Notes: generated by a model from the letters alone, not told the origin. A DNA stretch of 64,000 bases from Gemmata sp. (GCA_025055115.1 JANWYJ010000056.1:1-64000), one strand, 5' to 3'; positions 1,194 through 63,152 are shown, numbered from the stretch's first letter. Program-made: numbers and translations.

Positions 1194-4100
1194 TCACTTC
1201 ACCCATGGCGCCACTCGCTGCCATAAAGCCCACAGTTTGGCGGACAGAAGGCTTGTGTGGCCAGCGATGCACGACACCACCCGGCGATAGGCCCGGGCGG
1301 CGCCGGCGGGGATGTCTTTGGGGTCGCAAGAAGCGGCGGCGACCTTGAGATGATCCTTGGCTTCGTGGAAGGCTGCGCTGTGGCCATCCGGACCGGCTTG
1401 GCGCACCATCACAACCGCTTCGGCCATGGCCAGAATCAAGCGGGTGCCGTCGGGGATGGTGATGGTGTCGATTTTGGCCAACTGAGCGGTGGCTTCGGCC
1501 AGCTGACCGCTGAGGGCCAGGTCGAGGGCCAGCCAGGCGCGGAAATCGGCGAGGGTTTCGTCCGGTCCGCCAAGTTTGATTGCGGCCCGGCATACGTCGA
1601 GTGCCCGTTCATCTTGATCAAGAATGCGGAAGGCGATGGCCAGTGGGCGAAGCATCCAGGCTTCGAGGTGGTCCCGTTCACGCCAATCGGCCAGCCACGC
1701 ACTGGCGAGGGCGTAGTGTCCGGCCAGCACCAACGCGGCTCCCGTTCGCGCCCAGGCGACGCTGTCGGCGCGGAGAATTTCACTGTATTTCTGGGCGATC
1801 GCTTGCACGGGGTGGCCGGCTTCGGCTTGCGCCCACAGATACGCCAGCAGAACCTCGCGGGCCGCGGCGGGGTTGTGCGTCAGCAATTCGGGCAGCCGAT
1901 CGGCTACGGCATGGGGCGAATCGGTGCTGGCGACCCGTTCGGCCCAAATCCCCGCAAGTTGTGGGTTGGTCTCCGGCAGAAAGGCCAGTTCTTTCAGTTC
2001 CGCGTTCAGTTGACTGGTCCAACCTTCCATATCGAAGGCTTGCACGGCTTCTTGCAGGAGGCTGCGATTGGCTTCTGGATCGCTGGCTAATTCCCGGAAG
2101 CGGCTACAGGCCACTTCCAATTCTCTCTGGCGGCACGCCACTTGCACACCGCGGAGGGTGACCTGAGGTCCGCTGGCGTGTTGTTGCAGGGTAGCCAGGG
2201 TCCGCGCTGCGGCGGCAATATCGTCGGCGGCCAGTTGTTCGATGATCAAGTTCAAGCCAGCGGTTTCAAAGGTGGGGTCGAGTTCAAAAGCCTTGTGGAA
2301 GTCGGCCAGTGCCCCGCGGCGATCGGCGACGCGGCGGCGGGCTTCCCCCCGGTAAACATAAGCGAGAGGATTATTCGGTTCGAGAGCGACGAATTGTTCG
2401 GTGGCTTCGAGGCATTCGCGCGACTGTCCGGCCATGTCGTACCAGGCCGCCAATTGCCGCCAGCCCAGAACAAAGTGAGGCTGCTCTGTCACCAGTTGTC
2501 GCATCGCCTGGATCGCTTTGGTACGGTTGCCGCGGCGTGCTTCGATCCAGGCGATGCGGCTGCGCAGCTCGATGGGCAGGGGTTCCCCTCCTTCGGGGAG
2601 TTGACAGGCAGCCAGGGCTTCGTCGTAGCGGCCCAGTAAGGCGAGTTGCTCGGCTTTGCAATCATACGCGGGAACGAATTTCGGGTACGCTTTGATAGCG
2701 GTTTCCGCGGCCCGGATGCGTTCCCCCGGGTCGGCGGCCTGGCCGTCGGGCGAGTCGATCCACAGGATGGGTACCCAGGGATGGAAGGGTCCACCGCGTT
2801 GCCAGGTCTCCCGGAGAATGGCCAGCGCTTGTGCTTCCCAGCCGGCCTCGCGCAGGGCCTGGAGGGCGGCTTGCAACGGATACAGCGACAACCCTTCCCC
2901 CTCACAAATTTCCCGCAAAGCGCGCAGGGCCGTTTCTTCATCCTGGGTGCGGCAGGCCAGTTGAATTTGTTTGACGGCGACTTCCGGGCCGGAAGCGTGT
3001 TCCTGCAACACGCCCAACGCCTTCTCGGCTTCGCGGTATTCGCCATCGGCCAGATGGGCGTCGAAAAGGATGGCGGCGGCCAGGGAATAGCCCGGGCTGA
3101 GTTTGAGGGCTTCGCGGAGATCGGCCTTTCCGCCTTCACGGTCGCCGGTTTGCAACTTGGCTTCGCCGCGCATGGCCCAGCCGGCAGGATGGTGGGGTTG
3201 GAGTTGAACGAATTCGGAGGCCGCTTCGCGATACTGCTGGGGGTTGCCGGTTTCGTTGTACCACTCGGCCAGTTGATGCCAGCCCCAAACATAATCGGGT
3301 TCCACGGCGACCAACCCTTGCATCCGGGTGATGGCTGTGGCGTAGTCGCCACTGCGGGCGCGCACCCAGGCTTCGCGGCCTTGGAGAATCATCGGCACTT
3401 CGCCGGCGAACTGGGGCGGCGTGGCGGCGGCCAGAGCGGCTTCGAATTGGCCCATTTCCGCGAGCCGTTCGGCTTTGAGGTCGTGGGCTTCCACGTTGCG
3501 CGGTTCGAGGGCGATGGCCCGGTCGAGGGCGGCCAGAACTTCCTCGTTGTGCCGAGGATGTTGCAGCATGCGGGCCAGGCGCAGCCAGACGCGCGCATCG
3601 CCGGCGCGGTCGCGGGCCAACGCGCGGACGAAATCCGCAGCTTCCTCTGGGGCATCCAGCCGCTCGGCCCATAATTGAATGTGGTGCCACGCCCAATCGT
3701 AGCCTGGTTCGAGCCGCGCGGCGATTTTGGCATGTTCCAGGGCTTCCCGCGAACGGCCTTCATCCCATAACCGTTCGGCCAGAAAACCGTGCGCCAAGGG
3801 ATCCAGTGGGTTCCGCCAGACGGTGCGTTCCAATACGGCTATCGCCGCCGCGCGTTCACCGGCATCGACCAAGGCTTCGGCCAGTTCGCGTGCGGCGGCC
3901 GACCATCCCGGGGCCGCGGCGACCGCACGCCGCAAGGCCTCCAAGCGCTCCTCCGCATGGCCTAAGCCGTGGCAGACTTGTGACAAATCGAGCCACAATT
4001 TCGGGGCCAGTGGAAAGCGTTCCGTCGCCTCGCGGGCCAACGAATACGCTTCTTCCAGCCGTCCGAGGCCGGCCAGTTGCTGAATCACCGCCGACCACGC

Positions 4101-7085
4101 CTGCCAGACATCCGGGCGGCGGTCGAGCAGGTCTTCGAGCCGTTCGAGCAGCAGGGTGTGGTCTTCCGGATCCGGCTGGCTTTGGAACAGCTGATGCGCC
4201 GCGGTGATGTACCCCACCAAACCTTCGCCGCTGTGCGGTTGCCGTTGCAACTCGTGGTAGACGAACTCGAGGGCTTCACGTTTTTCCCGTTGCCCGCGGC
4301 TCAATTGCACCAGTTCCGCGATACAGGGTTCTTGGTCGATGTGGCGACGCAGACCGTTGCGCAGAGCATCCAACGCTTCTGGGATGCGGTCGGCCCGTTT
4401 GTGGACTTGTGCCAAAACCGAGTAGTACCAGACGTGGCCCGGTTCGAGTTCACCCCCGCGTTGGACGGCAGCCAGAGCGGTTTCATGATCCTTCTTTTCG
4501 GCCAACACCAAGGCCCGTTGCCGTAAGGCCCAGGCATCGTCAGGGTATTCGTCGAGCATATCGAGAATGGCGCGATCGGCATCGGCTTCGGGGTCGCCCG
4601 AGAGGAACTCGGCGCGGAGTTTGAGGAGCGGGTAATAATGGGGAAAGCGTTGGCAGGCTTGGCCCAGGTGAGTTCGGGCCGCTTGGCGACCGTCGGTATC
4701 GCAGAGCAAACTCACCAGTGCCCGGTGCAGATCAATCGCTAGTGGCTCGCGTTTGACCGCCTCTAAATAGTGAGCCGCAGCCGTGGTGAAATCTGGCTTG
4801 AGGCGAACGATCCGACCGGCGGCTTTGTGCCAGTTGAGGGGAGAAACGTGGGGCTGGGCGGCGGCCAGGTCCGCTTCCGCTTCCGCGGTACGTCCGGCGG
4901 CCATGTGGCATTCCGCCCGGAAAAGCAACAGTTCCCCCAGCGCTGAGCTGTCGGGCGCTCGGGTGGCCAAGCCACTGGGGGGTGGGGCCGACGGCTGCTG
5001 ACTTTGAAGCTTCTTGATCGCCTGGTCGAGAGCGATCATCGCCTGCTCAGGTTCCTCGCGATCGAGCAGGGCGTAGTACAGCGACCGGGTTGCAGCGGGG
5101 ATGGGCACCGCGGCCCGACCGGCGCGGAGTTGGAACAGCCGTAACACTTCGGGAACTTGCTCGGTCACACATGCGGCGCGGAAGTAAGCCTCGGCGAATT
5201 GGTCTTCCCGTTCTTCGAGGGTGCAAGCGAAGCGGTACAGTTCGGTAGCCTCATCGAACTGTTGATGTTCCCACCATTGCGACGCCAGCAGATAATAACC
5301 CGCCGCCGCGGTGGGGCGATTGCGCAGAGACCGGCGCAGCAGCTGAGCGGCCTCGTGTTGCCGCTGGGGAATCGCCAAGAGTGCCTGCGCCAGAGTTTGC
5401 GCTAACATCGGCTCGGCGTTGAGAGCACTCCCGGCTTGTTCCAGCAAGGCCAGGCGTTCCGGCATCCGGTTCAGTTCCCGCAGCATGTTGGCTTTGGCCA
5501 GAAGCCAGGTCGATTCGTGCGGGAACTTCGTCAACAGCTCGTTGTAGAGGGCGAGAAGACGGTAGGGGTGGGCATCGTAACGGGCGATGGCCAGAGCGGC
5601 GAAGGTCGTCAGAACGTGGTTGGGGAAACGGTTCTGCATCACCCGCAGAGCGGTTTCTGCGGCGGGGCGATCATGCGTCAGCAGCGGCTTTTGAACCGCG
5701 TAAAGGGCTTCGCGAAGGTCGGCCTCGGTGAGGGTCAGCCCGTCCAGGCTCGCCGCCGCGGTGGCAGGGACCAACACCATCGCCCGCGGGCCAAAGGCGG
5801 CGAAGCGTTCGATGAGCGAACCGGCCGGCACATCGACGGGGCGGCGCTCCAGACCATCCACAATCGACACCGTGCCGCGAATCGCATCCGCGCCGACACA
5901 CAAACGCGGTTGGGAGAAGCCCGCTTCCACCAAGGTGATGATGAAGGGCAAGCGGCGGTCGAGCAGAGCCACTGCGGCTTCCAACGACAGGGTGAATTCC
6001 CGGGCCACCCACCCAGCTGCTTCGGCCTGGTGCCGTTCCGCAGCATCGGGTAGACCATCCAACGGTGGCGGACTGTCGGGAGCCATTGGCAGTGGGGTTT
6101 TCCAATACCGGGCCAACAGTTCGTAAACGGTGGCCACCTCAGGCGGGGGCGGAAATTCCAAAGCCACGGGGCGAGGCGGCGACGGTGGCGGTGCCAGTTG
6201 GCCCTGGGCGAGGGATTCTAATCGTTCAGAAAATTGATCGTAGAACTTATCTTTCACGGCCCGGGCTTGGACTGCGGCTTCGGCATAGTGGCCGAGGAAG
6301 TAAGCGGACTCGGCTCGGCGGGCGGCGAGCCATTTGGCCACCTCCGGTTCCAATAGGGGGGAGAGTTCCGCGTAGCGTTCGAGGGTGCGGCGGGCGTCGG
6401 TGTAGTGGCCGAGTTCGGTTTGCAGGGCGGCCAGTTGGGCCGCCACCAGTCCGCTTTCGAGTCGTTGATTGGCTTCGACTAGAAAGTCGAGGGCTTGCTG
6501 GTCGCGGCCTTGCCGCAGCAACAGATGGGCCACCGATTGTACGCCGGGGCGGAACCATGGGAATAATTCCAGGGATCGTTGAGCTGCCGCCAGGGCGTCG
6601 TCGAGCCGGTCGGCTAGCTCGTAGACACTGGAACGTTCGATACACGGCCAGGGTCGATCGGGGCAGATGGTTTCAGCGCGATTGAGGAGCCGTTCGGCAC
6701 GGTCGAAGTCGCGCAGTCGGGCGACGACGTATGCGGACAACGACAGCCAATCGGCGTGCAATTCCGGGCCGGCGTCGGACCAATCGAGATGCTGCCGCAT
6801 GAAACGCCAAGTGGAGAACGGCCCGAAGCGTTCCATCCGGTAGCGGGCATGGTAGTAGATCGCTTCCGGATGGGCGGGTGCTTGGCGATAGGCGAGCAGA
6901 TGCAAGCGCCGGCCCAACTTGGGTGCTCCCAATTGGATGGCCAGCCGGCCACCGATGAGTCGGGCGGTGGTGCCGGTCCAGGTGTGGAGCGGGCCGAGGG
7001 GTTGGGTGGCTTCGTAGGCCTGTCGGTAGAGGCCTTGCATGTAGAGTTCGCGAATGCGCGTCAAATCCGCGGGTGCAATGTCCAT
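1194..7085 (-). CDS. Giant tetratricopeptide-repeat protein with degenerate C39-like segment
   Basis: The protein has 1963 residues and is almost entirely TPR-type helical repeats, with signatures such as ALDRAIALEPRN and ADFHKAFELDP, so a scaffold or protein-binding role is likely. No signal peptide is seen. Around residues 390-460 the helices give way to an alpha/beta segment (LPFIITLVEAG, then CVGADAIRGTVSIVDG) that resembles a C39/papain-fold peptidase domain. The expected histidine before the VGxD strand is absent, so it is probably inactive; this is inference. Residues ~1230-1500 and ~1500-1770 are an internal duplication (LQEHASGPEV and LQQHASGPQV, 270 residues apart). The ATG at 7085 was chosen because longer starts run into the upstream gene, which ends 46 bases away and is probably co-transcribed. 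Confidence 0.85.
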   Translation of the reverse strand: MDIAPADLTRIRELYMQGLYRQAYEATQPLGPLHTWTGTTARLIGGRLAIQLGAPKLGRRLHLLAYRQAPAHPEAIYYHARYRMERFGPFSTWRFMRQHLDWSDAGPELHADWLSLSAYVVARLRDFDRAERLLNRAETICPDRPWPCIERSSVYELADRLDDALAAAQRSLELFPWFRPGVQSVAHLLLRQGRDQQALDFLVEANQRLESGLVAAQLAALQTELGHYTDARRTLERYAELSPLLEPEVAKWLAARRAESAYFLGHYAEAAVQARAVKDKFYDQFSERLESLAQGQLAPPPSPPRPVALEFPPPPEVATVYELLARYWKTPLPMAPDSPPPLDGLPDAAERHQAEAAGWVAREFTLSLEAAVALLDRRLPFIITLVEAGFSQPRLCVGADAIRGTVSIVDGLERRPVDVPAGSLIERFAAFGPRAMVLVPATAAASLDGLTLTEADLREALYAVQKPLLTHDRPAAETALRVMQNRFPNHVLTTFAALAIARYDAHPYRLLALYNELLTKFPHESTWLLAKANMLRELNRMPERLALLEQAGSALNAEPMLAQTLAQALLAIPQRQHEAAQLLRRSLRNRPTAAAGYYLLASQWWEHQQFDEATELYRFACTLEEREDQFAEAYFRAACVTEQVPEVLRLFQLRAGRAAVPIPAATRSLYYALLDREEPEQAMIALDQAIKKLQSQQPSAPPPSGLATRAPDSSALGELLLFRAECHMAAGRTAEAEADLAAAQPHVSPLNWHKAAGRIVRLKPDFTTAAAHYLEAVKREPLAIDLHRALVSLLCDTDGRQAARTHLGQACQRFPHYYPLLKLRAEFLSGDPEADADRAILDMLDEYPDDAWALRQRALVLAEKKDHETALAAVQRGGELEPGHVWYYSVLAQVHKRADRIPEALDALRNGLRRHIDQEPCIAELVQLSRGQREKREALEFVYHELQRQPHSGEGLVGYITAAHQLFQSQPDPEDHTLLLERLEDLLDRRPDVWQAWSAVIQQLAGLGRLEEAYSLAREATERFPLAPKLWLDLSQVCHGLGHAEERLEALRRAVAAAPGWSAAARELAEALVDAGERAAAIAVLERTVWRNPLDPLAHGFLAERLWDEGRSREALEHAKIAARLEPGYDWAWHHIQLWAERLDAPEEAADFVRALARDRAGDARVWLRLARMLQHPRHNEEVLAALDRAIALEPRNVEAHDLKAERLAEMGQFEAALAAATPPQFAGEVPMILQGREAWVRARSGDYATAITRMQGLVAVEPDYVWGWHQLAEWYNETGNPQQYREAASEFVQLQPHHPAGWAMRGEAKLQTGDREGGKADLREALKLSPGYSLAAAILFDAHLADGEYREAEKALGVLQEHASGPEVAVKQIQLACRTQDEETALRALREICEGEGLSLYPLQAALQALREAGWEAQALAILRETWQRGGPFHPWVPILWIDSPDGQAADPGERIRAAETAIKAYPKFVPAYDCKAEQLALLGRYDEALAACQLPEGGEPLPIELRSRIAWIEARRGNRTKAIQAMRQLVTEQPHFVLGWRQLAAWYDMAGQSRECLEATEQFVALEPNNPLAYVYRGEARRRVADRRGALADFHKAFELDPTFETAGLNLIIEQLAADDIAAAARTLATLQQHASGPQVTLRGVQVACRQRELEVACSRFRELASDPEANRSLLQEAVQAFDMEGWTSQLNAELKELAFLPETNPQLAGIWAERVASTDSPHAVADRLPELLTHNPAAAREVLLAYLWAQAEAGHPVQAIAQKYSEILRADSVAWARTGAALVLAGHYALASAWLADWRERDHLEAWMLRPLAIAFRILDQDERALDVCRAAIKLGGPDETLADFRAWLALDLALSGQLAEATAQLAKIDTITIPDGTRLILAMAEAVVMVRQAGPDGHSAAFHEAKDHLKVAAASCDPKDIPAGAARAYRRVVSCIAGHTSLLSAKLWALWQRVAPWVK

Positions 7086-51405: not shown

Positions 51406-52182
51406 GTGAATCGCCAATTCGCACTATTCACCGTGGCACTGACCGCCGCAGGGCTGCTCAGTCTTGCCTATACCAGCTTCGCCCAAAACCCGGCACCGGG
51501 GGGTGCCCCGGCTCCGACCGCCAACACCCCGGCCCCCACACGGCCCACGGTGGCCGTCTTCAACATGGCGGCCGTGATGCGCGATTTCGGGCAAGCCAAG
51601 TACCAGGTTTGGCTGCTCAACAAACGCAAAACCGAAGAATCGAAAAAACTGGTCGAAATGCGCGGCGAATACATCCAACTGAACCAGGACTTGCAGCGCA
51701 ATCCCCAACACCCTGAAAAGGATGCCAAACAGCGCCGCATGATCGAACTGCAACGGCTCATCGAAGATGAAGACCGCCGCATCAACAAACTGCTCAATGA
51801 TGCCGCCAGTGCCATTATCAGCGATCTGTACGACAAGATCAAAACCGTCATTGACCGCACCGCGGAAATGAACGGCTACCACATCGTGTTTGCTTATCCG
51901 GATGCGGTCACGAAGGAAGAGATGAATAATGCCTACATCAAAGAGTTGAAGCTCAAGCCGCCGGCGGCCCAACCGTTTTATGTCGCGCCGCATGCCGACA
52001 TCACTGGCGTGGTGGTCAAGGCGTTGAATGCGTGGTATCCGCCCGTCGATTCTCAGGGGAAAGTCGTCGATGTGAACAAACTCGATGAACCGCCCGCCCT
52101 GGGGCCCAACACCCCATCGAACCCCGGTATGCCCAACGGCGGAACGCAACCACCTGTGACGCCGGTTGTACCGGGACGATAA
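51406..52182 (+). CDS. OmpH/Skp family periplasmic chaperone
   Basis: A 258-residue secreted protein. The signal peptide FALFTVALTAAGLLSLAYTSFA is followed by a Pro/Ala linker, then VAVFNMAAVMRDFGQAKYQ, the Skp-type opening strand, and a long charged coiled coil (KRKTEESKKLVEMRGEYIQ through RLIEDEDRRINKLLND). A final FAYPDAVTKEEM strand comes before a Pro/Gly-rich tail. OmpH/Skp proteins are trimeric chaperones escorting outer-membrane proteins. The next genes are lpxC and a Gfo/Idh oxidoreductase, which is an outer-membrane biogenesis context. GTG 51406 with AGGAGG at 51391-51396 is the start. Confidence 0.88.
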   Translation: MNRQFALFTVALTAAGLLSLAYTSFAQNPAPGGAPAPTANTPAPTRPTVAVFNMAAVMRDFGQAKYQVWLLNKRKTEESKKLVEMRGEYIQLNQDLQRNPQHPEKDAKQRRMIELQRLIEDEDRRINKLLNDAASAIISDLYDKIKTVIDRTAEMNGYHIVFAYPDAVTKEEMNNAYIKELKLKPPAAQPFYVAPHADITGVVVKALNAWYPPVDSQGKVVDVNKLDEPPALGPNTPSNPGMPNGGTQPPVTPVVPGR

Positions 52183-52274
52183 CGGTATCGTTGGTGACAC
52201 GATGATGGAAAAAAGATGTTCAAGTGAATCCGGTCGCTGATCCGATACTAGCGGAGCGACTGGATTACGGCTTG

Positions 52275-52306
52275 TGATCAGAGAATGATGGAACACTCTC
52301 TGATCA
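52275..52306. promoter_or_regulatory. 10-bp hairpin or palindromic operator before lpxC
   Basis: TGATCAGAGA at 52275-52284 and its exact reverse complement TCTCTGATCA at 52297-52306 are separated by 12 bases, 40 bases upstream of the lpxC start. As an RNA it is a hairpin in the lpxC leader; as DNA it could be a dimeric repressor site. No T-run follows. Function unknown. Confidence 0.55.
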
Positions 52307-52346
52307 GAGGTTGTAGCTATCCAACGGCTCGCCAAGGAAGGCCCCC

Positions 52347-53255
52347 GTGAGAATCCTCGGCTATCGCAGTCAACGCACGCTGGCCGCACCGGTGCAGATC
52401 GCCGGCGTGGGCTTCATCACGGGGGCCGAGGTTCGAGTCACACTTCTCCCCGCAGCTCCCGATACGGGCTTGGTATTTCGTCGCATCGATCGACCCGGTT
52501 CACCGACCATTCGCGCCGCCGTCAGTTCCGTCACGAGTACCCAGCGTCGTACCACGCTTGGTCCGCCCGATTGTGGTATCACGCTGGTGGAACACATTCT
52601 CGCCGCCTTATTCGGCTTGCGGATCGACAATTGCTGGATTGAACTCCATGGCCCGGAACCGCCGGGGTTGGACGGCTCCGCCCTCGGATTTGTGCAGGCG
52701 ATGTGCGCGGTGGGCGCGGTTCGTCAGGCGGCTCGTCGGCCGATTTACACGGTTCGTGAACCCGTGCTGGTCCGCTCGGGGGGAGCGACGTTGGCCGTTC
52801 ATCCCGCGGCAGGCCTGGAATGCGTGGCCACCTACCGGCTGGATTACGGGTGGGGAGCCCCTCTAGCGCCACAAACGCACACGCTCCGGATCAGTCCTGG
52901 GGAGTTTGCCCGCGAATTGGCCCCCTGCCGGACTTTCCTGACCGAATCGGAAGTGCAAGCGCTGCGGCAATCGGGTATCGGCTTGCATCTCGGCCCGGCC
53001 GACTTGCTCGTCTTCGGCGCGCAAGGTCCTATCGGCAACCGGGTTCGGTTTGCCGATGAACCTGCGCGCCACAAAATTCTCGACATGATTGGGGATTTGG
53101 CCTTGTGCGGTTTTGACATTGCCGGGCATATCATCGGCTACCGCTCGGGGCATGCGCTGAATGTCGAATTGGCTTCGCGACTGGTCGAACTTGCTCACGG
53201 AAAGCTTCGACGAATACCCCGCCGGGTCGAATCCCCGCGGTGTCATGCCGCTTGA
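52347..53255 (+). CDS. lpxC: UDP-3-O-acyl-N-acetylglucosamine deacetylase LpxC
   Basis: A 302-residue LpxC, which removes the acetyl group in the committed step of lipid A synthesis. The zinc and catalytic residues line up with E. coli LpxC at a constant +4 offset: Glu82 and His83 in LVEHILAALFGL, His242 and Asp246 in ARHKILDMIGDL, His269 in RSGHALNVEL. So an active enzyme is expected. GTG 52347 is the start. It follows ompH by 165 bases and precedes a Gfo/Idh oxidoreductase by 31 bases, which probably shares its transcript. A palindrome lies in its leader. Confidence 0.94.
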   Translation: MRILGYRSQRTLAAPVQIAGVGFITGAEVRVTLLPAAPDTGLVFRRIDRPGSPTIRAAVSSVTSTQRRTTLGPPDCGITLVEHILAALFGLRIDNCWIELHGPEPPGLDGSALGFVQAMCAVGAVRQAARRPIYTVREPVLVRSGGATLAVHPAAGLECVATYRLDYGWGAPLAPQTHTLRISPGEFARELAPCRTFLTESEVQALRQSGIGLHLGPADLLVFGAQGPIGNRVRFADEPARHKILDMIGDLALCGFDIAGHIIGYRSGHALNVELASRLVELAHGKLRRIPRRVESPRCHAA

Positions 53256-57995: not shown

Positions 57996-59255
57996 CTATT
58001 GGCCCTGGTTCCAGTAAATCCGGGCATTTTTCGTTTGGCGGCCGACGGCGATGATGTCGGGCCGGCCGTCGCCGTTGAAATCAGCCACGGTGAGGTCTTC
58101 CACCGCGACGCCACCTTCATCCAGAAGGTAGCGTTCCCAAGTGCTGCCGCGGGCATCAGTTGAGCGATAAATCCGCACGCCGCGGCGTTGGGTGTGTTGG
58201 TCGCCCGCTTTGGGGTTGGGATCGTCACGAACACCGATGATCAGTTCGTCGCGTCCGTCGCCATCCAGGTCGGCGAACCACACAGCATGGCCCCAGCGCA
58301 GTTGTTCGTCAATGACGTGTCGTTGCAGTGGGAAGGCTTTCTCGGGGTGGGGTGGACCGGGGGTGTAGACGACAACCTGGTGGCCGTGCCACGGCTCAAT
58401 GGTGGCCATCAGTCCGCGTCCGTCGTTGCTGAGTTTGATTTCGCTGGCGCCGCGGTTGCCTTTGGGATTCGTTTGGTTGGCGGCATGAAGGGTTCGCGTG
58501 GTCCAAGCGTTGTCGGGTCCTTCGGGGTAAACGAGGTTCACGCCTTCGTAGCTAGCCACCAGAATCGACCGACCGGGGCGGGCGAAGCCACCTTGTGGGC
58601 CGGGGTAGAAGTTATGGCAGACGTGCAGTTGCTCGGAGAGAACGATCGGTTTCCAGTTGTCCTTTTTCTCCGGTTGCTGCGCGGGAACTTTCATGGCGAT
58701 GATGCGCACCGGTTTGCCGTCGGTAAAGTTGCCTTTGGCCGTTGCTCCGCGGCCGTGCAGGGGAACATGGACAATTTCCGGTTTCCCGTCGCCGTCGATA
58801 TCCATGGCGCGAATGCGATGAATGCTGGGTTCATCGCACGGAAGTTCGTACATAGTCCATTCCTGGGTGACATCCGGACCACGTTTCAGCCAGGCCAACT
58901 GACCGTGGGTGGTTGTGTCGGCGGGTTTCCATGCGGCCCCGAGAACCAATTCCGGCCGGCCATCGCCGGTGATGTCGAGGGCGGTGATGCAGACGTTATC
59001 GGGCCGGGTTTTGCCGTCGAGGATGGTGTACTTCTTCCACGCCTGGCCGGGCTGGCCTGGATTGTGGTACCAGACGACTTTGTGTTGGTCGACCACAACG
59101 ATATCGGGTTTCTTGTCGCCATCGATATCTTCCACAAGGACCGCGTAACCAATGGTGAGGCCGGTATCGATTTCTTGGGTGGTGAATCGGGGGAACTCGG
59201 CCGCGCAGATCGGGATAGGAACACCTATGGCCCAAGCGAGGATCGCGTAACGCAT
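57996..59255 (-). CDS. Secreted FG-GAP/VCBS repeat protein
   Basis: A 419-residue secreted protein. The signal peptide is RYAILAWAIGVPIPICAAEF. It contains five or six FG-GAP-type calcium-binding units of ~60 residues: VLVEDIDGDKKPDIVVVD, ALDITGDGRPELVLG, AMDIDGDGKPEIVHV, ADLDGDGRDELIIGV and ADFNGDGRPDIIAVG. The DxDGDG loops make a propeller like that of integrin alpha subunits. Role unknown, probably ligand binding outside the cell. ATG 59255 gives the signal peptide; an upstream in-frame extension to 59705 lacks one and would reach the leader of the divergent channel gene. Confidence 0.9.
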   Translation of the reverse strand: MRYAILAWAIGVPIPICAAEFPRFTTQEIDTGLTIGYAVLVEDIDGDKKPDIVVVDQHKVVWYHNPGQPGQAWKKYTILDGKTRPDNVCITALDITGDGRPELVLGAAWKPADTTTHGQLAWLKRGPDVTQEWTMYELPCDEPSIHRIRAMDIDGDGKPEIVHVPLHGRGATAKGNFTDGKPVRIIAMKVPAQQPEKKDNWKPIVLSEQLHVCHNFYPGPQGGFARPGRSILVASYEGVNLVYPEGPDNAWTTRTLHAANQTNPKGNRGASEIKLSNDGRGLMATIEPWHGHQVVVYTPGPPHPEKAFPLQRHVIDEQLRWGHAVWFADLDGDGRDELIIGVRDDPNPKAGDQHTQRRGVRIYRSTDARGSTWERYLLDEGGVAVEDLTVADFNGDGRPDIIAVGRQTKNARIYWNQGQ

Positions 59256-59450: not shown

Positions 59451-60245
59451 ATGTCGATCTCCACGTCGCACCGGCCAGCGCGCGAGTGGCTTTTGTTGGT
59501 GCTTGCCCTGATTCTCGTTGGTGGGGCGATCACCCCGGTCTGGCAACTGCTGGGCGGTCCTCAGATGCGCGAGGAATTGGCACGCAAATGGACGGACGAA
59601 CGGCTCCTGCGGCTGTTCATCGGTCCGGAGCAAGTGTTGTGCTATCTGTGTGCGGTGTGGGCCGGATTGATTCTGCAGAGTCGTTATCGCGAAGTGTTGC
59701 GGCAACGCCGCGCCTTCACAATGGATTTACTGCCGACCGAAGAAGGGGCGCGCATCCTTCCCGAAGATGCTCGCCCCCTGAACCGCAAAATCGAGCAGAT
59801 CACCGCGGGGCAGCCATTGATTCTGGCCAACATGGTGCGCTTGGGGCTGGGGAAGTTTGCGATCAGCAAGTCGGCCCCGGACGTGGCCGAAGTGGTCCGC
59901 AACCAGGCCGATGTGGAATTGTCGCGCTTGATTGCCACCATGGCGACGGTGAATTATCTCGCCTGGGCCATACCAGCGATTGGCTTCGTCGGAACCGTGC
60001 GCGGCTTGGGCGGGGCCTTTGGTGTCCGCGAAAGCGACATTCTGAAATTCACCGATCAGGCGAAAGATCAACTCAACATCGCCTTTGATTGCACCCTGGT
60101 GGCGTTGGTCCTTAGCCTGATCGTGATGTATTTCCTGCACATGGTGCAGCGGGCGGAAGAAACGTTGATTACCGACGCGCAGCAGTATTGCCAGGAACAT
60201 TTATTGCTGCGGTTGTATGATCCGGCGAAGGATGGCGGCATCTGA
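59451..60245 (+). CDS. MotA/TolQ/ExbB-type proton channel protein
   Basis: A 264-residue membrane protein with a TolQ/ExbB-like layout: transmembrane segments near 13-35, 60-77, 166-187 and 207-231 and a ~85-residue cytoplasmic loop between the second and third. The third helix contains IPAIGFVGTVRGL (174-186), the GLLGTVxG-type signature of MotA/TolQ/ExbB channels, and the fourth has FDCTLVALVLSLIVMYF with the polar Thr expected to face the proton path. There is one extra N-terminal helix relative to ExbB. Such channels form pentamers that use the ion gradient to drive a two-helix partner (ExbD, TolR, MotB). No such partner gene follows directly. It stands upstream of an Hsp70-like and a vWA gene. 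Confidence 0.85.
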   Translation: MSISTSHRPAREWLLLVLALILVGGAITPVWQLLGGPQMREELARKWTDERLLRLFIGPEQVLCYLCAVWAGLILQSRYREVLRQRRAFTMDLLPTEEGARILPEDARPLNRKIEQITAGQPLILANMVRLGLGKFAISKSAPDVAEVVRNQADVELSRLIATMATVNYLAWAIPAIGFVGTVRGLGGAFGVRESDILKFTDQAKDQLNIAFDCTLVALVLSLIVMYFLHMVQRAEETLITDAQQYCQEHLLLRLYDPAKDGGI

Positions 60246-60358
60246 TCGGTTGTCGTGCCAATGGCATCCCCTGCGGATGGGGGGCATACCCTCCGGTCGC
60301 CGGCGAAAATGGTGCTCGCCAGGCTGGGTGTGGGGGCTTTAACCCGGAAAACGATGTT

Positions 60359-61579
60359 ATGCTGTGGTCGCGGAAATCGGAACCGGTTTATGATCGCATA
60401 CGGGCCGTGGGTCTGGACCTGACGGCCAGTCGGGTGCGGGCCGAGGCTTTGGGCAGCAAATGTCGCCCGCTGGTACTCGACGAACCCGAAACCGAGCTAC
60501 CACTGTTCATCGCCGGTGAACGGCGTGTGCCGGTCGTGGGCCGGGCCGCTGTCGCGTTGTGCCGCCGGTTACCGCATGTGGTGTGCGCGAATTTTCTGGC
60601 ATCGCTGAATCAACCGCGTGAGTGGAAGATCGGCCGCCATACGTTGACCGCGGAGATGGCGTTGGGGCTGATCTTCGAGACCATTCGCAAACCGGTGCTC
60701 GGGGAAACGGAAGCGATTGGCCTGGCATTGCCCGCGTATTTGGCCCCAGCTCAGGTGACGCAGATGGCCGCGACCGCCCATCGCGCCAAACTACCTCTGA
60801 AAGGAACCACGGTCGGAGCTTTGGCCCTAGTGGCCGACAACGCGGCCTCCCTTCTCCGTGGCTCCCCCCCCAGCTCCGTGCGGCCCTGGGCCGAGTGGGT
60901 GGTGCCACTGCGCAGCGAACCGCGACCGGCGGCAGTGGTCGTGGTCGTCGATGTTGATGAATGTGCCTTGAGTGCCGTCTTGGTTCAGGTGAATCCAGAT
61001 CGTGTGAAAATCGCGGCGGCGGCGGCCTGGCCCCGATTGGCCCACAAAATCTGGAAAGATCGCTTGCTCGATGCCGTCGCGGATCGTTGCGTGCGTTTGT
61101 GCCGCCGCGATCCCCGGGATTCGGCCGAAGCGGAACAAAGCCTCTACGATCAACTCGACAACGCCCTCGACCGCTGCCGCGCCGGCCAACGTATCAGCCT
61201 GACCATCCGAACGGCGCACTGGTTTCAGGATATCCTCCTACAACCCGAGGAATTCGAAAGCTATTGCCACACCCTCAGCCGGCTCGCCGGCGAGTCGATC
61301 CGCGACTTCATCCATGGCAGTGGGTTACTCGAACCACCGGCGGTCGTGTGGCTGACCGATGCCGCCGGCCGCCTGCCCGGCTTGGTCGGCGCTCTGCACG
61401 CCAATACCTCGGAAGCAACGGCCATCGAAGTGCTGCCTCCGCACGCCGTGGCGGCAGCGACAGCCGCACTAGTCCCCCGGTGGCTGGCCGGCGATCTGCC
61501 ACGCACCCATTTGGATAACGTGATTCCGCTCGAACTCCCGACCGCACTGACCCCCCACGCCCAACCCGGTGCGAAGTAA
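60359..61579 (+). CDS. Divergent Hsp70/actin-fold protein
   Basis: A 406-residue protein with Hsp70-like N-terminal landmarks: VGLDLTASRV at ~17-26 (phosphate-1 position), then GLALPAYLAPAQVTQMAATA (121-140), which resembles the Hsp70 VPAYFNDSQR region, and TVGALALVAD (151-160), comparable with NEPTAAALAY. At the phosphate-2 position the family's DLGGGTFD reads DVDECALS (~198-205), so the glycine triplet is absent and ATP hydrolysis is doubtful. There is no signal peptide. The gene lies 113 bases after the channel gene and 28 bases before the vWA gene, so all three probably form an operon. The role may be regulatory or assembly-related; this is inference. Confidence 0.7.
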   Translation: MLWSRKSEPVYDRIRAVGLDLTASRVRAEALGSKCRPLVLDEPETELPLFIAGERRVPVVGRAAVALCRRLPHVVCANFLASLNQPREWKIGRHTLTAEMALGLIFETIRKPVLGETEAIGLALPAYLAPAQVTQMAATAHRAKLPLKGTTVGALALVADNAASLLRGSPPSSVRPWAEWVVPLRSEPRPAAVVVVVDVDECALSAVLVQVNPDRVKIAAAAAWPRLAHKIWKDRLLDAVADRCVRLCRRDPRDSAEAEQSLYDQLDNALDRCRAGQRISLTIRTAHWFQDILLQPEEFESYCHTLSRLAGESIRDFIHGSGLLEPPAVVWLTDAAGRLPGLVGALHANTSEATAIEVLPPHAVAAATAALVPRWLAGDLPRTHLDNVIPLELPTALTPHAQPGAK

Positions 61580-61607
61580 CGGTGAATTCACCAACACGGC
61601 CTTGGCT

Positions 61608-63152
61608 ATGAAAGTTCATCACAAACCGCCGACTCTCGTGAGCATGTGGATGCTCGATGTCTTCTGCTGCGCCCTGGGCTGCGTGTCGTTGCTGTTTCTC
61701 ATCAACAGCCGCATGGCCAGCGACGCGGTAGAAGCCCAAAACACTCTCAACCAACAGCTCGCGGCCACCGAGTGGCAATTAACCGATGCTCTCGGCCAAC
61801 TCCATGACACGCAAAGCCGCCTGACCACCATCGAACGCCAGCGGTCACGCCTGGCCGCTCAGGTCACCGCACTGGAAGAACGTCGTCACCAGCTGATGGC
61901 CCAGGCCACCGCCTTGAGTGAACGGCTCGCCGCAACTCAGGCCGAGAAAGACGACCTAGCCAAGCAACTCGCCACCGCCCGTGCCGACGCTCAGGCCACC
62001 CAAACCCGCCTGGCCACCACCACCCAGGAACTGGCCATCACCCGTCGCGACCTGGCCGCGACCCAAGAGCGACTCCAAAAGAAACTCACGGAGCTTGACA
62101 TCCTGACGAAAAAAGACGCAGCAGCCACGCTCGAGGTCGACCGGTTGCAAAAACTGCTGCGCCACCATGACGACCAACGGCTGGCCCTGGAAAGTCGCGT
62201 CGCGACCCTCAAGAAGGAACTCGCCGAGGTGCAAGCGAAAGGGCTGGCGACACAAAAGGAACTCCAAGCCCAGATCGCGGCGGCCCACATGGCGGCCAAA
62301 GCCGCCGCCGAGGAGTTGGCTTCCGCTCACGCGGCCCTGAAAACCGCCACCGAACAACTGACAGCCGCCAAAGCCCAAGCCAGCAAAAACCAGGAAGAAC
62401 TCGGTGCCACCCGGTTGCAAATCCAACAACTGACCAAGACGATTGACGAGGCCCGCGCGACCATCATCGACCTCCAAGGCGAGAAAGCCAAACTCGCCGA
62501 TCAATTCCACAAGTTCCAGAAGGAAACCGAAGCCCGTTTCGCCGGTATCGCGATGACCGGCAAGAAAGTCGTTTTCATCGTCGATATGTCCGGCAGTATG
62601 GGCAAACGCGATCTGACCACGCTCGACACCAGCAAATGGCCCCTGGTGGTCGAGACCGTTTGTAAGGTCATGCGGAGCATTCCCACCCTGGAAGCGTATC
62701 AGGTAATTGTTTTCTCCAGTTCGGCCCACTGGCTTTTCGGCAGTGGCCAATGGCGGACCTTCACCGGCGAACCCTCCGTGGAGGCGGTTCGCGAAGCCCT
62801 ACTGCAGGTGAAACCCAAAGACGACACCAACATGTACGCCGCCTTCGAGAAGGCGTTTTCTCTGCGGGCCACCGGCCTGGATACGATTTACCTCTTCTCC
62901 GATGGACTACCCACCAGCGGCGAAGGCCTCACCCCGGCCCAAGAGAACCTGTCCGAACAAGAACGGGGTGCTCTTCTGGGCAAGTACGTTCGCGAGAAAC
63001 TTTCGCGCAGTTGGAACCGGGCGGAAAATGGCCAGCCGCGCGTGAAGATCAATTCCATCGGCTTCTACTTCGAAAGTCCCGATGTTGGGGCGTTCTTGTG
63101 GTCCTTATCCCGCGAGAACGATGGTAGCTTCGTGGGTATGTCCAAACCTTAA
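61608..63152 (+). CDS. Asp-containing TM helix, coiled coil and vWA domain protein
   Basis: A 514-residue protein. One transmembrane helix lies at 13-33 (MWMLDVFCCALGCVSLLFLI) with an Asp at residue 17 near its N-terminal side, the position held by the proton-binding Asp in ExbD/TolR helices. Next comes ~270 residues of strongly heptad-patterned coiled coil (QLAATEWQL through KFQKETEAR). A von Willebrand factor A domain follows, with DMSGS at 326-330 as the metal-binding (MIDAS) motif, and LFSDGLPTSG later. The vWA domain and coiled coil would be outside the cytoplasm if the helix is oriented N-in. ATG 61608 was chosen; an in-frame start upstream overlaps the previous gene. It ends just before pgsA (77 bases). 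Confidence 0.88.
   Translation: MKVHHKPPTLVSMWMLDVFCCALGCVSLLFLINSRMASDAVEAQNTLNQQLAATEWQLTDALGQLHDTQSRLTTIERQRSRLAAQVTALEERRHQLMAQATALSERLAATQAEKDDLAKQLATARADAQATQTRLATTTQELAITRRDLAATQERLQKKLTELDILTKKDAAATLEVDRLQKLLRHHDDQRLALESRVATLKKELAEVQAKGLATQKELQAQIAAAHMAAKAAAEELASAHAALKTATEQLTAAKAQASKNQEELGATRLQIQQLTKTIDEARATIIDLQGEKAKLADQFHKFQKETEARFAGIAMTGKKVVFIVDMSGSMGKRDLTTLDTSKWPLVVETVCKVMRSIPTLEAYQVIVFSSSAHWLFGSGQWRTFTGEPSVEAVREALLQVKPKDDTNMYAAFEKAFSLRATGLDTIYLFSDGLPTSGEGLTPAQENLSEQERGALLGKYVREKLSRSWNRAENGQPRVKINSIGFYFESPDVGAFLWSLSRENDGSFVGMSKP

Follow-up and report, generated by a model that had tools for sequence, protein, structure and literature searches.

The described systems closest to the locus reported here are the TPH-vWA motors, in which vWA proteins with an Asp in a transpore helix are the proposed partners of TolQ-like pentamers, acting as rotors of TolQ-like motors that have no TolR (PMC12204202, Mol Biol Evol 2025). 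These motors are found mainly in Proteobacteria and Verrucomicrobia; most of their loci encode two different vWA proteins, and in published AF3 models of related proteins the Asp pair lies within a ring of Thr residues (PMC12204202). The main text of that paper makes no mention of Hsp70, DnaK or the FHA domain. Neither a review on the 5:2 motors (PMC9389320) nor a phylogeny of MotAB (PMC12505986) mentions partners with a vWA domain. In our literature search, which covered few subscription papers, no paper was found that joins an Hsp70-like protein with this motor.

Here we describe a three-gene block in Gemmata sp. that encodes a MotA/TolQ/ExbB-type channel, a protein with the fold of an Hsp70 nucleotide-binding domain (NBD) and a vWA protein with a single Asp-bearing transmembrane (TM) helix. 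We judge it probable that the three genes encode a PMF-driven trans-envelope motor similar in kind to TolQR/ExbBD, with the vWA protein in place of ExbD/TolR. The window, which is the whole stretch of DNA analysed (GCA_025055115.1 JANWYJ010000056.1:1-64000; 64,000 nucleotides), contains the following features, and the three plus-strand genes are all in place as an initial annotation had located them:

59451-63152, plus strand: the whole block of three consecutive genes, for the channel, the Hsp70-NBD-fold protein and the vWA protein
59451-60245, plus strand: MotA/TolQ/ExbB-type channel, 264 aa, signature YLAWAIPAIGFVGTVRGL (Pfam MotA_ExbB; AF2 fold)
60359-61579, plus strand: Hsp70-NBD-fold protein, 406 aa, family signature RRDPRDSAEAEQ (AF2 fold; profile against DnaK)
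61608-63152, plus strand: vWA protein, 514 aa, with an N-terminal TM helix, a coiled-coil shaft and a C-terminal vWA domain (VWA_2)
61644-61703, plus strand: TM helix of the vWA protein, MWMLDVFCCALGCVSLLFLI, with the codon of the invariant Asp17 at 61656-61658
61713-62522, plus strand: coiled-coil shaft of the vWA protein, ~270 residues (no proline; heptad periodicity)
62568-63149, plus strand: vWA domain, with the MIDAS motif DMSGS at 62583-62597 and the conserved C-terminal GFYFESPDVGAFLWSLSRENDGSFVGM (Pfam)
57999-59201, minus strand: FG-GAP repeat protein, divergent, immediately upstream of the channel gene
51406-53252: OmpH-like and LpxC genes, 6-8 kb upstream of the block

The channel matches Pfam MotA_ExbB (PF01618) at 31.5 bits, for a curated cut-off of 22.9. 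Its AF2 model, a single chain, has a pLDDT of 81.7, and the top 50 PDB chains matched by this model are exclusively ExbB, TolQ, MotA and PomA (TM-score to the target about 0.33-0.66). Pairwise phmmer searches against the PDB returned no match for either the channel or the Hsp-like protein, and family profiles and folds were needed. Thr182 and Thr215 are invariant in the order (35/35). Among the channels of the multi-phylum loci described below, the GT site is kept in all 80 and the second Thr in 74, the other six being cases in which the pattern was not matched.

The channel also matches the ZorA profile weakly (E 0.0021 over 92 residues), which favours reading the locus as a Zorya-like anti-phage defence system. 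Zorya shares with it a channel and an Asp-TM partner; ZorB is OmpA-like, ZorA is long-tailed and defence genes lie alongside. However, the window locus has no ZorB OmpA-like domain, no long ZorA tail and no adjoining defence genes, the genes next to the block being of ordinary types, and the block occurs almost throughout the order and clusters by taxonomy, unlike patchy defence islands. With so weak a ZorA match and ZorB missing, identity with Zorya was dropped, and we regard this reading as hardly credible. The initial annotation had named Zorya as the nearest analogue in logic; the TPH-vWA motors are closer.

We take ATG 61608 as the best start of the vWA gene because it is conserved in relatives, and the Asp singled out in the initial annotation is then indeed residue 17. 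Asp17 is invariant in the order (40/40), and the TM helix ranks among the most conserved parts of the protein. The tail ahead of this helix (MKVHHK) is positively charged and, under the positive-inside rule, fits a cytoplasmic N terminus and a periplasmic vWA head. The head matches VWA_2 at 38.4 bits (cut-off 27), and its MIDAS residues D339, S341, S343, T420 and D445 (numbered from GTG 61569) are invariant in the order (38/38). Between helix and head, the ~270 residues previously annotated as coiled coil contain no proline and have a heptad periodicity that was reached by 0 of 2000 shuffles. By simple arithmetic, such a shaft would measure about 40 nm as one continuous helix, which is long for a periplasm and argues against the motor reading. 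No Pfam ExbD or OmpA family is present in the protein, where a vWA domain stands instead, and the TM segment matches neither the ExbD profile nor any other relevant Pfam family. The likeness to ExbD thus rests on the Asp, the topology and the gene context. ExbB-ExbD and TolQ-TolR share with the window's system the fold and family of the channel and a partner with one TM helix and a key Asp, whereas ExbD and TolR have a domain of their own and the partner seen here ends in a vWA head carried by a coiled coil.

Conservation was assessed in 44 genomes of the same order, with 40 relatives fetched for gene order. Homologues of the vWA gene are present in 41/44 genomes; channel and vWA genes occur together in 40 and are both absent from 2, one of which is rated complete and has only a remote channel type of 457 residues. 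The remaining two genomes are a 68%-complete assembly in which no channel was detected and one in which the contig breaks off behind the Hsp gene. The vWA gene is therefore not usually found without the channel gene. Channel, Hsp-like and vWA genes follow one another in this fixed order on one strand in 34 of the 40 relatives. The exceptions comprise three loci at contig edges (L003, L042 and L061), the 68%-complete assembly just mentioned (L070) and two genomes with the channel and vWA genes on different contigs (G006 and G039). This break in linkage counts against the motor reading; it also indicates that the channel-vWA pair is kept without linkage. In more distant genera, protein identity falls to 19-45% for the Hsp-like protein and 28-45% for the vWA protein, and the three-gene block, kept across the order despite such low values, is far from a chance arrangement. 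No conserved extra gene accompanies it: neighbouring gene clusters recur in about 14 of 34 loci at most, the most frequent of them on the opposite strand. Of two surveys of the whole phylum, the one by vWA domain was swamped by unrelated vWA proteins, and the one by Hsp profile returned mostly ordinary Hsp70s and was uninformative. In the window's family, L195 and L197 encode a further type of channel, about 450-490 aa long, with a protein containing the helix FSFDSFLDVVANVVGIILRLILIAW, another candidate Asp-bearing TM segment, 2-3 kb downstream.

The genome itself provides a control for the missing ExbD. It has five MotA/ExbB genes in all, and directly downstream of each of the other four lies an Asp-TM partner of the ExbD or MotB type. 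By contrast, no ExbD/TolR/MotB gene lies beside the window channel, as the initial annotation had noted, or along the rest of the contig to its end. We considered an unpaired ExbD at another site in the genome and discarded it, since all four ExbD matches adjoin, and belong to, other channels. This bears on whether the vWA protein might instead be a TolA/TonB-like transducer on the side of the channel, the true rotor being an ExbD encoded elsewhere. Another family of membrane-tethered vWA proteins, the side-binding transducers, is encoded with motor genes in Planctomycetes among others and offers a precedent for such an arrangement (PMC12204202). However, these transducers are encoded together with tolQ and a pair of tolR genes, and their helix has a His as part of an SHLS motif, whereas the window helix has neither SHLS nor His and bears an invariant Asp; moreover, the reading needs the spare ExbD that the genome does not have. 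We consider it distinctly improbable. Given the invariance of Asp17, the MIDAS residues and the channel threonines, and with no orphan ExbD, the vWA protein most likely takes the position of ExbD/TolR. This part of the earlier proposal is strengthened by Asp17 (40/40) and by co-occurrence (40/44). The accompanying statement that no described system has this combination does not stand, as TPH-vWA rotors of TolQ-like channels had already been proposed (PMC12204202).

The middle gene had been annotated as degenerate Hsp70-like, and its product agrees with that description. Although no Pfam family exceeds its cut-off, the AF2 model (pLDDT 89.9) matches the PDB in Foldseek with an E value of 5e-20, the top 50 matches being all of the Hsp70/DnaK type, VIA gives Z 35, and the family profile aligns to DnaK with an E value of 3.5e-14. 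In the DnaK alignment, the Hsp70 phosphate loops DLGTT and DLGGGT correspond to DLTAS and DVDECA; with these loops lost, ATP hydrolysis is unlikely. The model spans the NBD only, and a substrate-binding domain is absent. The protein thus shares the NBD fold with Hsp70 chaperones but has neither their intact phosphate loops nor their substrate-binding domain. Ssz1 (RAC), a non-canonical Hsp70, is among its best structural matches, with the Hsp70 NBD fold common to both; Ssz1 and other non-canonical Hsp70s differ from it in context and by the substrate-binding domain.

Related loci were found well beyond the order. One scan of named genomes yielded 80 loci, mostly from Gammaproteobacteria and also from Thermodesulfobacteriota, Acidobacteriota, Gemmatimonadota and other deltaproteobacterial assemblies. 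Marinibactrum halimedae (L253) is one gammaproteobacterium with the cluster. These multi-phylum loci have an Hsp-like gene in 77/80 cases and two vWA genes in 61/80. The Asp helix is present in 126 of 131 vWA frames; among the five in which it was not scored, three show the motif below the hydrophobicity cut and two are frames wrongly extended upstream. Homology links the Hsp-like family of the order with that of the multi-phylum set (hhalign E 1.2e-29), and both have a motif of the type RxDPxxxxxxEQxL; in the wider family, 16 of 27 Hsp-like relatives contain an FHA domain. In distant Planctomycetota, the same Asp helix is encoded in channel-Hsp-vWA-vWA arrangements (L131-133 and L136) and in channel-vWA arrangements without the Hsp-like gene (L154, L156, L161, L162 and L165), several of these distant loci having FHA or Ser/Thr kinase genes alongside. 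Upstream of the multi-phylum loci, always on the same strand, lie genes for PEGA-FGE proteins (74/80), TPR/PEGA proteins (65/80) and a lipoprotein-like uncharacterised protein (56/80), none of which was found near the window's version. At L201, for example, TPR/PEGA, PEGA-FGE membrane and lipoprotein-like genes occupy 1705-6560.

In a tree of 63 channels (one alignment, 275 columns), the Hsp-bearing channels sampled, except that of L134, form one clade (support 96/89), which splits into the window's order and the multi-phylum group. At L134 an Hsp-like gene lies upstream of the channel, yet this channel falls outside the clade on a long branch. This planctomycete locus encodes an FHA-trypsin protein, the Hsp-like protein, the channel and a coiled-coil protein with an Asp-TM segment, in which no vWA domain was detected, and it adjoins a protein kinase-like gene. 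Other Planctomycetota (L150, L153, L155, L158 and L168) have channels of a related clade. Behind the channel come one or two TM proteins with coiled coils, in which the Asp stands in different motifs (FQDI, LLLDTxCNxFGG) and no vWA domain was detected; upstream lie GYF-type domain-like genes. These coiled-coil proteins look like further ExbD substitutes.

The window's system shares with the TPH-vWA motors a linked TolQ-like gene without tolR or exbD, an Asp in the vWA TM helix without SHLS, and the Thr ring of the channel. The published Idiomarina set is likened here by its description, which the homologous Gammaproteobacteria loci found in this work fit. On these sequence grounds, the window's system is a divergent branch of the TPH-vWA kind. 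TPH-vWA motors usually have a vWA pair, whereas the window's order has a single vWA protein whose shaft, at 190-351 aa, is about double the length of those in the multi-phylum sister group (123-135 and 115-122 aa). To judge from the sequences, two things appear to be new: this planctomycete branch, with its one long-shafted vWA protein, and the Hsp70-like putative pseudo-ATPase as a conserved third part, often fused to FHA elsewhere.

The FHA domain on the Hsp-like protein, and the kinase or FHA genes adjoining in several lineages, suggest signalling, and might mean that channel and vWA protein are a regulated proton leak or sensor in which a ligand on the head gates proton flow and the Hsp70-like/FHA protein reads it. 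However, the long shaft, and in other phyla the upstream PEGA/TPR and lipoprotein-like genes, fit cross-envelope force, and we think a leak or sensor unlikely.

For the motor that we favour, gene pairing and conserved residues argue strongly for a complex of channel and vWA protein; what follows on rotation, the direction of force and the ligand is far more tentative. A channel oligomer, a pentamer by homology, would enclose the TM helices of two vWA proteins. Asp17 would ferry protons past the ring of Thr182 and Thr215, and the helices might then turn or shift. The coiled coil would transmit this motion across the periplasm as far as the vWA head with its MIDAS. This head, in the initial annotation a putative adhesive or metal-dependent one, may grip a ligand on the wall or the outer membrane; the OmpH and LpxC genes in the window make an LPS-bearing outer membrane very likely and a possible target. 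The Hsp70-NBD-like protein would be a cytoplasmic pseudo-ATPase, docking either on the channel or on the rotor's short N-terminal tail, where it may set assembly or gating, probably as the input for a phospho-signal, given how often it bears FHA in other phyla.

We propose, as a possibility that we hold with less than even confidence, an ion-driven motor that rotates a coiled-coil vWA protein and has a cytoplasmic clutch or sensor of its own, a dedicated subunit consisting of a catalytically dead Hsp70 NBD. The 5:2 motors would then have a new, regulated branch that reaches at least five phyla and takes a long-shafted form in planctomycetes. Few types of ion-driven rotary motor are known, and in this one a ligand-binding vWA head would sit on the shaft of the rotor, with a conserved Hsp70-type putative pseudo-ATPase at its side; the biology of the envelope in this phylum is little understood. 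Point mutation of the conserved residues offers a direct test of the published rotor proposal, and the Hsp70-like part may open a new way to study the switching of such motors.
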